A stretch of DNA of 64,000 nt, taken from Anaeramoeba flamelloides (lineage: Eukaryota; Metamonada; Anaeramoebidae). Below, one piece after another: positions 13,559 to 42,085 of this stretch (position 1 is its first letter; each line of letters starts with the position of its first letter). Location of the stretch: NCBI GenBank assembly GCA_027625915.1, contig JANTQA010000012.1:3627001-3691000 (forward strand). The letters run 5' to 3'. Position numbers and translations under genes: made by a program. The notes under the pieces are model-generated. The model made no database searches. It saw only the letters and a list, made by a program, of their open reading frames with translations, and was not told the DNA's origin.

Positions 13559-14828
13559 GTTTGTTATGGTTCATTTTTTTTCTGAGAGTAGGATCAATTT
13601 ACAATTGGACAACCTTTTTCAGTAATTGATCATTGATATTTCAAACATTTCCAATTTTTTTTTAAAGAACGAGACTTTTTTCGTTTTTCTATAAAAATTT
13701 TCCACAAATTTTTACAAATCAAATATATATGCAAATGTCAGGTAAATTTCCTTAAAAGAGCAACAAATTTCCAATGAGAATTATTCATTCTTTTTTTTCA
13801 ATGAAATCAATATTTAAAATTCTTGAAATATATTAATTTAAAGTTTGTCACCCTTTCAAATGATCCAAATTCTATCAGAGAGATAAAATAAAGGAATGAC
13901 CTTAATAAGGCCTTTTACCCAAGATAATATTGTTTTAACGAGTCTACAGTTTTATTAATTGTAAAATTCGCTTTTTGTTTTCTACCCAGTCTATTATTAA
14001 TATTAATGTTTGTATTAAAAAGTAATAAAAGAGTAAACGCACAAAATGATTCAACATTTCTTGAAAAAGAAAAATTCACATTTTAAGATAAGCCATCTCA
14101 GAAGGGAATCAATAAGAACTATTTTAAATGTTAAATTTTCTTCGGCTGTTTAAACTGAAATAAATATGTATATAATAATAAATAGTAATTTGATACAGAA
14201 AAATAAACAAAAATGAAATATTACATGTATTATATTGGTATAACCATTGACCTTAATTAAGTTATTTGAAAATTTGTATATCCTTCATTACCTCAAACGC
14301 ATCCAAATTTCATCAAGTTTCGAATAACAGATTTAAAATGATATTGGTGTATTAATATATTTATTTTGTTATTTTCTTTAACCCGGATTTGGAGGATATT
14401 TTTTCTAAAAAAGTCAAAAGAGTTCGAAAGATAAATTTCTTTAGTTATTTTATTTTATTTTTTTTCTTATCTTGAAAAACAATAATTAATGATTCCCTTT
14501 TTTAATTTTCTTTATAGATTTTTTTTTTATTTTTGAATTTTGAAATAAGAAATGACATTGCAATAAAAGTATTCATTATATACTATGCTAGTTTACGAAT
14601 AAAACGATAAAATAGCGTTTTTGGTTGCATTATAAATAAAATAAATGAAAAAAAGATAATATTGAGTCATTTTTTATACTACATTTTAATAAAGAACTAT
14701 TTCGGTGAAAAAAGTAAATCCATAAAATTATGCCAAAATTCGAAGTTTAATATTAATAATTTTCTACAATTCCACTTTCAAACAATCAAAAATAATTGAA
14801 AATAAAAAAAAATAAAATAAAATAAAGC

Positions 14829-14990
14829 CAGTTTCACTTTTAAGACACAAACCTTGAATGAAATTGAAGCACCAAAAAAAAATTCAAATTAAGGCACATT
14901 TTTCGGAATTTTTTTTTCTCACCAATTGTTTTAATAGAATCTGATTTTTTTGCCTTACTTTGTGAATTTTTTTTTGTTTCCTTAATTTTT
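14829..14990. repeat. Degenerate family B element
   Basis: CAGTTTCACTTTTAAGACAC at the left matches the end of family B. The right half (TTTTGCCTTACTTTGTG...) is only roughly complementary to the left arm. An old, decayed copy. Confidence 0.5.
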
Positions 14991-15179
14991 ATTGTATGTT
15001 TGTATTTACAAAATTGAAACAGCTATAATTGAAAAATAAATATATTTATTACAACATAATCAAATGAATAAAAACCGTTTTAATAGATAAATTAATTGGC
15101 CCGAATCTTTTTTTTAAAAAATATAAAAATTAAGTTTTAAATATTATTCAAAGATAATAAAATACTCCTTGTTTCATAG

Positions 15180-15211: not shown

Positions 15212-15456
15212 CTTATTGATTTTTTTTTTTTTTGGAAAAATTTGGATAAATTAAGTGTGAAAATTGTATTTGACAATCAGACTTAGGTGAAATATTTTAA
15301 AAATAAATTTTAACAGAGGTCTTTTATCCAAAAATATTGTATTTTTCTTATGCTCTAGATTTTGAAAATCCAAAAATTCATAAAAAGTAAATTAAAAAAA
15401 AAACATCTAATAATAATCTAACTCGGAATTTTGGTCATATAATTGAAAGTTGAACA

Positions 15457-15652
15457 CAGTCAGTTCCACTTTTAAAACACAAACTTTGAACGAAATTTAA
15501 GGTACAATAAAAATCTCAAATTAAGGAACAAAATTCAAATTCAAGTAAAATAATTTTAGTAAAAAGAAATTACAAATAATGTTCTTTAATTTGATATTTT
15601 TGTGTACCTTAAATTTTGTTCCAAGTTTGTGTCTTAAAAGTGGAACTGAGTG
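15457..15652. mobile_element. MITE family B, copy 1
   Basis: 196 bp. Ends CAGTCAGTTCCACTTTTAA and TTAAAAGTGGAACTGAGTG are inverted repeats, with the next block (AATTTAAGGTAC / GTACCTTAAATT) continuing the palindrome, so almost the whole element can fold back. Closely related to the 197-bp copy at 40149-40345. CAGT termini resemble Tc1/mariner MITEs. Non-coding. Confidence 0.82.
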
Positions 15653-15957
15653 TAGTATATTTGTGAAATTTGAATTTTTTTAATTTAAATTATACTAGAT
15701 CTTGAAAAACAATTTTAGTAATATTGTATCTCATTTAATACTCTTATTTATTTTATATCTAAATTTTACAAAATTTAAAAATTAAAAAATAGTAAAAATT
15801 AAAAAAAAAATAGAATATTACTCTAAATTTAACAGTTGTGAGAATATTCTCAATTTTGCAAAAAAAAATAGTGAAATAACATTTATTGATTAATATTTAA
15901 ATTCTTTTAAATTCTTTCAAATTCTAGAAGGAAAAGAAAGTTCAGAAGTTAAATGTA

Positions 15958-30309: not shown

Positions 30310-36864
<6,555 letters not shown>

Positions 36865-38858: not shown

Positions 38859-39185
38859 TTAGCATCAGAATATACCCAAAAAGTTTTGTATATATGGAGA
38901 TTTCAATACCCTTCAAACAAAATAAAATAAAAGGGAAAAAAAAAGGTTTTATTTTGGTGTAATCATTCCTTTTATTATTAAGTATAGAAGAAAGAAAGAA
39001 AGAAAGAAAATATAATAAAATGGGAGAATCTTTTTTGTTGATCTATGAGGGAAGAAAAAATATTTAATTATTTCTAAAATTGAAAAAATAAAAAAATTGA
39101 GAATAATAATGAAATTAATAAAGAAGTATTTTTTACTTTGTTGTTTTTTTAAGTATTGTTGATGTTTACGATTTTGTACATTATA

Positions 39186-40525
39186 TTATTTAATTTTTTT
39201 TTTAAAACTTTTTTTAATTTCTTCACCCTTAGCATCATGAGTAGGTATTCTCTTTTCATCGAATTTACCAAATCTAGGATCGTTTAAAAACATTTCCTCT
39301 GGTTTAATTTTAGTTCGTTCAAGTCTTTTTTTCTGTTCTTCTAATCTTTGAAGTTTTGCAATTTCCTTTTTTTTTTCTGCAATTTTTTGATCTCTTTCTT
39401 TTAAGAGCACTTCTTTAATCTCAAATTTCCAGACAAATGGCTCATTATTTCGATCTTCTAATTTAATACCAATAAAAGGTAAAACATCATCTCTGATTTG
39501 ATCACTTAATTGTAATAACTCCAAGGTTTCTATAGTAATTTATTTAAACGAAAAAAAAAAAAAAACAATTAAAAATTAATTATCACAACAAATATCAAAA
39601 AAAAAATGAATAATTAGAAATTAAAAAAAAAAATTAATAATTAAAAATTAAAAAAAATTGAAAATTTTACTATTATTTCTTGCAAATAATCTTACTTTAT
39701 CACGGAATTCGGATAAAGCCATGGTAATTGGAGTGATAAATTCTTCCGTGTTTCCAGTAGTAGAGGTGGAAAACCCCATTTTTTCAAGGAATTAAGCCAA
39801 ATATTTGGAAGATATAAGTAATATAATAAGAAATGTCTGCAAAAACTTTATTTCTTGGGTTTTCTGTTAAATATGTATTTGTTGTGGAAACAAGTCCATT
39901 TAGAATTAAAATAACCTTAGGGGTATGGTATTGAAATCATCTAATAATGCTTCTCGGTCAAGTAACTTGACTTCTTCTAATTTATTAAACATTTTGTGTT
40001 CCTTTTCTCTCATTATTTCTCTATAATCTTTTTCTTTTTTTCAAAATTCAATTTTGACATTTTGAAAGAATTCTGAAAATGACTTGTATAATTTTAAGGA
40101 ATTTTCCATTCCATTTTTGCTATATTCAAGTTTGGAATTATATTTATACAGTCAGTTTCACTTTTAAGGCACAAACTTTCAACGAAATTTAAGGCACAAA
40201 AAATTTCTCAAATTAAAGCACAAAATTCAAATTCTAGTAAAAATAAATTGTAAAAAAAAAAATTCCAAATTTTGTGCCTTAATTTGAGATTTTTTTGTAC
40301 CTTAAATTTCGTTGAAAGTTTGTGCCTTAAAAGTGAAACTGACTGCACTGAAGAAAGAAAAATCATAATTGTCTCCAAGTGTATTTTTTAAGTACATCAC
40401 CAATAGTAATATAATTCTTTAGTGATTTGGACATTTTCATTTCATTAATAAATAAATTCCCAGAATGAAGAAAATAATTTGCCCATGTTTTGTTTTGTTA
40501 TCTTGCCTATTTCATATATTATTAA
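39186..40525 (-). pseudogene. Cysteinyl-tRNA synthetase copy, broken
   Basis: Minus-strand pieces match the eukaryotic cytosolic CysRS in order: [21 protein letters not shown] (the KMSKS motif), WRQL, the segment NGMENSLKLYKSFSEFFQNV, ALLDDFNT, LVSTTNTYL ... FQIFG, ITMALSEFRDKVR, LELLQLSDQIRDDVLP, a charged helix, and EEMFLNDPRFGKFDE. One intron (39530-39671, GTAAAA donor) is still in phase, so this is not a retrocopy. Lesions: TGA codons in frame at 40363-40365 (where relatives have Arg) and 40041-40043, frame changes near 39920-39923 and 39788-39789, a family B MITE at 40149-40345 inside the exon, and a scrambled N-terminal edge at about 40486-40525. The HIGH-motif half is absent. The 112-codon last exon is still open. 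Most likely a decayed duplicate; homopolymer sequencing errors could explain the frame changes but not the MITE. Confidence 0.85.
40149..40345. mobile_element. MITE family B, copy 2, within the CysRS coding sequence
   Basis: 197 bp, nearly fully palindromic: CAGTCAGTTTCACTTTTAAG and its inverse CTTAAAAGTGAAACTGACTG, then AAATTTAAGGCACAAAAA / GTACCTTAAATTTCG. TA precedes the left end and CA follows the right end. The synthetase homology resumes directly on the other side (LQ before, YNSKLEYS after). Confidence 0.88.
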
Positions 40526-41657: not shown

Positions 41658-42085
41658 ATATTATGAGTAGTGTCGCCGAGTGTCATCAAGTGACGTAGAG
41701 TGCCTAGATTTTTCAGAATTTTAAAAGAATGGAAAAAAATCAAATATTCCACTCAATTCTTTTAAATTTCCGGAAAAGAAAGAACCTAACTGCGTTTTTT
41801 TTTAATTTCAAAAATAAAAAGAAAATTTTTGAAATTTTAGTTTTAATTATAACATTAAAAAACCTTATGAAAAGTGTCTTCACATGTCTTAAAGTGTAAT
41901 AGTGTACCGTTGAGTACCATCTTTTCCATAATTTAAAAGAATTTGGTAAAATCAAATTTTTTTTTTTTTTATTTTTTTGAATTTTTGAAAAGCTATAGGT
42001 GTTTTTTTTCTTAATTACTGTTTATAAAAAAAAAAAAAATTAAATAAATTTTCATTTTATATCTCAAATTAAAAAAAACCTAACG
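41658..42085. repeat. Repeat family A, copy 3 (diverged)
   Basis: Starts AGTGTCGCCGAGTGTCATCA, with GAGTGCCTAGA and repeated TTTTAAAAGAAT words, and ends AAAAAAAACCTAACGAAAC, the inverse of the GTTAGGTTTT module. The GTGTC(G/T)-type words recur at 41874 and 41905. Confidence 0.5.

Follow-up and report, generated by a model that had tools for sequence, protein, structure and literature searches.

The minus strand of a 64,000-nucleotide stretch of Anaeramoeba flamelloides DNA (contig JANTQA010000012.1, hereafter the window) holds sequence resembling cysteinyl-tRNA synthetase (CysRS), the essential enzyme that loads cysteine onto tRNA-Cys, in a reading frame that is broken in several places. This raises the question of whether the locus is the relic of a gene, a gene reduced to its 3' end, a product of faulty assembly or a living gene rescued in some unusual way. 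The evidence argues strongly for a relic: the locus is very probably a non-processed pseudogene, a duplicate of the cytosolic CysRS gene that is truncated at its 5' end and has no function of its own, with an intact CysRS gene elsewhere.

The first-pass annotation had proposed homology to cytosolic CysRS running through the KMSKS motif to the C-terminus, and this is upheld by tblastn, by the PF01406 and TIGR00435 models and by solved chains. The minus strand from 40497 to 39189 contains a collinear remnant of a cytosolic (eukaryotic-type) CysRS, which extends from just before KMSKS to the C-terminal tail. With a provisional vertebrate cytosolic CysRS sequence as the reference for tblastn and for all alignments, the minus-strand segments 40151-39126 and 40497-40282 scored 112 bits and 60.8 bits, respectively, whereas the window, shuffled 20 times with its dinucleotides preserved, gave 26.6 bits at most. 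Independently of this reference, the piece with KMSKS is recognized by two family models, over positions 234-276 of the 301 in Pfam PF01406 (E 5.8e-12) and positions 246-288 of the 466 in NCBIfam TIGR00435 (E 4e-13), and it also matches solved CysRS chains (best E 3.5e-11). The features of the locus, in the 5' to 3' order of the minus strand, are as follows.

40366..40497, minus strand: CysRS piece A, 44 codons with KMSKS from the end of the class I catalytic domain; matches PF01406 and TIGR00435; 27/44 identical to reference residues 386-429
40149..40345, no strand: foldback (MITE-like) element, 197 bp, in the exon between pieces A and B; inverted arms identical in 75/79 columns
40044..40142, minus strand: CysRS piece B, followed by TGA 40041-40043; 14/30 identical to reference residues 438-467; 0/500 shuffles score equally
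39921..40040, minus strand: CysRS piece C, the stretch expected between B and D; placed by position alone, by itself at chance level
39787..39918, minus strand: CysRS piece D, in a shifted frame flanked by the two frame changes; 12/44 columns identical to reference residues 518-561; 0/500 shuffles score equally
39672..39785, minus strand: CysRS piece E, with ATG 39777-39779; 14/37 columns identical to reference residues 567-603; score 53, best of 500 shuffles 49
39530..39670, minus strand: predicted GT-AG intron, 141 nt, phase 1, 91% A+T; frame and homology carry on both sides
39189..39527, minus strand: CysRS piece F, last exon with the basic C-terminal tail, 113 codons; 51/117 columns identical to reference residues 609-725; 0/500 shuffles score equally
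39126..39185, minus strand: possible C-terminal continuation beyond the TAA, suggestive; in register with reference residues 728-747, 4/20 identical

Five of the six CysRS pieces (A, B, D, E and F) each beat all 500 of their own shuffles, piece E narrowly, and these five are collinear along the reference residues given above. Piece C finds its best local match outside the expected order, at reference residues 660-694, with a score that 46 of its 500 shuffles also reach. Taken alone and at E up to 1, the last exon was recognized by none of the Pfam and NCBIfam models, and its sole match among PDB sequences was an unrelated chain at chance level (E 0.84). Since no such model recognizes it, the assignment of the C-terminal part as the eukaryotic C-terminal extension, with the identities listed for piece F, depends on the single provisional reference. 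Searches for relatives gave 19 pattern matches for the last exon and 37 for the KMSKS piece in viral contigs, and 240 for the last exon in genome contigs, none of which was upheld by tblastn; the collections were viral and prokaryotic, and the result is uninformative.

The catalytic N-terminal half had been reported as missing, and in the window nothing matching it rises above shuffle level. Among the 40 tblastn rows listed, the best for reference residues 1-385 reached 26.2 bits (13507-13469), which is far from the CysRS relic and inside the range of the shuffles. Of the two motifs of a class I catalytic domain, HIGH and KMSKS, the locus therefore contains only the latter. Compared with eukaryotic cytosolic CysRS (CARS1 type; PF01406, TIGR00435), the relic has the KMSKS region and a collinear C-terminal half with its basic tail, whereas its frame is interrupted, its exon carries an inserted element and the window yielded no N-terminal half. 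Judged from the assembled sequence, the locus is derived from the CysRS family and is not able to work as an enzyme in its present form.

The two in-frame TGAs and two frame changes noticed at first pass could be located. The TGAs lie at 40363-40365, just downstream of piece A, and at 40041-40043, and the frame changes near 39918-39921 (-1) and near 39786 (+1). In addition, an in-frame TAA (40498-40500) marks the 5' edge just upstream of piece A, with a TAG three codons further up that was not counted. As the frame changes are opposite in sign, the frame is restored after piece D, and the TGA found at the second of them is a consequence of the shift and not a separate nonsense codon. Programmed frameshifting was considered and rejected, given that the two changes are opposite and flank only piece D, for which indels are the simpler explanation. 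Frame-breaking lesions in gene-homologous sequence, here the TAA, two TGAs, two frame changes and an insert, are a feature of pseudogenes.

That insert had been described as a transposon in the exon, correctly so: it is a 197-bp inverted-repeat element (40149-40345) with two further copies in the window, and its length, its terminal inverted repeats and its presence in three places agree with a MITE. Its ends read CAGTCAGT, and the exon copy is preceded by TA and followed by CA, without a clean target duplication. The element presumably resembles Tc1/mariner-like MITEs, with which it shares its short, near-palindromic structure, its occurrence in several copies and its ends, unlike them in that the target duplication here is not clean. 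The second copy lies at about 15456-15654 (arms 67/75 identical) and the third at 14822-15003 (arms 41/53, measured on 14826-15003), the two being about 450 bases apart. Because the arms of these copies are less alike, the exon copy is probably the youngest of the three in the window. The possibility that the insert is an intron was set aside in view of its two sister copies elsewhere in the window.

How the copy arose can be approached from the predicted intron. A 141-nt GT-AG stretch with the borders GTAAAATTTT...ATTACTATAG (39530-39670) lies in phase with the CysRS homology; an in-phase intron had already been proposed at 39530-39671, with an end that is one base off. Instead of the intron-less structure of a processed retrocopy, the homology is interrupted by an intron-like stretch, which speaks against such an origin. 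The anatomy of the locus supports the earlier proposal of a pseudogene that is not a retrocopy.

We suggest that the CysRS gene was copied by a segmental duplication that included its 3' part alone, or that the 5' part was lost afterwards, and that the copy, freed from selection, would have accumulated nonsense and indel changes and received the MITE-like insertion. An intact parent gene is expected elsewhere in the genome because the enzyme is essential, and this gene would charge tRNA-Cys. According to PMC11550330, the gene families of A. flamelloides are greatly expanded, with more than 1100 ribosomal-protein genes compared with 82 in A. ignava; spare broken copies would therefore be unsurprising in this organism. 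Similarly to duplicated pseudogenes and to the plant aminoacyl-tRNA synthetase (aaRS) gene fragments treated in PMC7564348, the locus consists of truncated aaRS remains without a full catalytic domain, and it contains a predicted intron; it differs from the plant fragments in its explicit lesions, its MITE-like insert and its protist host. Among the open-licence papers listed on CysRS pseudogenes, CysRS C-terminal regions and Anaeramoeba, the locus is undescribed in titles and abstract openings.

The open last exon had been singled out at first pass as noteworthy, and it is indeed open, for 113 codons (39189-39527) rather than 112, the lower count starting at the next codon, TTG. Moreover, a frame can be followed from ATG 39777-39779 through the predicted intron to the TAA at 39186, giving 151 codons including the stop and no earlier stop. 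This would allow the 3' end to live on as a small gene that encodes the C-terminal basic tail of CysRS alone, with a start codon inside the old gene and the intron retained, and its stand-alone product might bind RNA or a synthetase complex. The open spliced frame and the GT-AG borders are consistent with such a gene, as is the position of the five listed lesions, all of which lie upstream of this ATG, so that the coding sequence of pieces E and F (453 bases) is free of them. There is also precedent in plants, given that PMC7564348 records 14 aaRS gene fragments in Arabidopsis, likely catalytically null, and seven in rice, one of them from CysRS, although the authors leave undecided whether these fragments are pseudogenes. 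However, the probability of such 5' clustering by chance, calculated post hoc from nonsense mutability and length under the assumption that changes to A or T weigh twofold, comes to 0.073 when only the TGAs and the frame changes are considered and to 0.038 when the TAA is included. The clustering is thus weak, slightly above what uniform decay would give, and the lesions do lie 5' of the last exon without making that exon clearly special. In addition, the TAA at 39186-39188 may itself be premature, and so a further lesion, since weak collinear similarity extends beyond it. When this continuation (39126-39185) was shuffled, 69 of 500 versions did as well against the entire reference and 275 of 5000 did so against the final 45 residues; of the 832 minus-strand stretches in the window that contain no more than one stop, 15 scored equally. 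Taking both sides together, we consider a stand-alone tail gene improbable. The frame beyond the terminal TAA (38949-39185) stays open for 78 more codons and is T-rich; its four weak Pfam matches all fall below the cut-off (best 17 bits vs 26.5).

Two further readings would place a sounder gene behind the broken frame. Sequencing or assembly error, with a true gene that is sound or at least sounder than the assembly, could be suspected from the short single-base runs that adjoin both frame changes, and the published Anaeramoeba assemblies are nanopore-based, with polishing that included Pilon (PMC11550330), a procedure that can leave indels. On the other hand, the two TGAs and the TAA are not run-length errors, faulty polishing explains neither the 197-bp element nor the lack of an N-terminal half, and domain-bearing ORFs of the same window are open for 649, 600 and 381 codons. 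Sequencing error as the sole cause is therefore unlikely, and we hold this reading as a whole to be very unlikely. Still harder to credit, and in our judgement extremely unlikely, is a living gene saved either by stop readthrough, frameshifting and removal of the element at the RNA level, or by a changed genetic code. The essential nature of CysRS and the intact borders of the predicted intron could be cited in favour of the unusual rescue that the first-pass annotation had left as an alternative, but several unrelated rescues would be needed, in addition to an N-terminal half not found in the window; no single mechanism accounts at once for the TAA, the two TGAs, the frame changes of opposite sign, the insert and the lack of the N-terminal half, and nothing points to that alternative. 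A change of genetic code in particular was rejected, as it would cure neither the frame changes nor the insert nor the missing half, and the 988 codons covered by Pfam matches in other genes of the window include 14 TGG but no TGA. Since standard stops had been used to delimit those ORFs, the absence of TGA is to some extent a built-in result. The terminal stops of ten ORFs (eight TAA, one TAG and one TGA) are mechanical ends and carry no weight on the code question; the single TGA probably lies in an intron, as suggested by the GTAAGT donor-like site that precedes it. A duplicated pseudogene thus remains the reading that we prefer.

For annotation, caution is advisable, given that gene predictors may label the locus as CysRS or as a short protein. 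If the 151-codon frame were expressed, the locus would show directly how truncation can turn an aaRS appendix into a separate gene; failing that, it is a duplicated pseudogene of the ordinary sort.

The surrounding window is A+T-rich (GC 0.234). Ten ORFs flanking the relic (8 of 37 and 2 of 22 listed; 10 of 59) gave no Pfam match reaching the cut-off, two of the ten having matches below it, one of these at 14 bits vs 27. A tRNA scan of the window with the bacterial code found none, and no Rfam family reached its gathering score. Pfam matches in the window correspond to parts of a Patched/sterol-sensing protein, a NUBPL-type NTPase, a protein kinase, a Ras-BTB protein, a TADA2A-like protein and a RhoGAP. 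In the protein kinase gene (30500-35912) an intron of roughly 3.9 kb apparently divides the kinase domain, as read from the translations (exon end at about 31155, next exon at about 35058), a length that far exceeds that of the 141-nt intron of the relic. Finally, the gap upstream of the relic (41661-41940) contains repeated agtgt/gagtg runs at about 41661-41710 and 41870-41920, possibly another repeat element.
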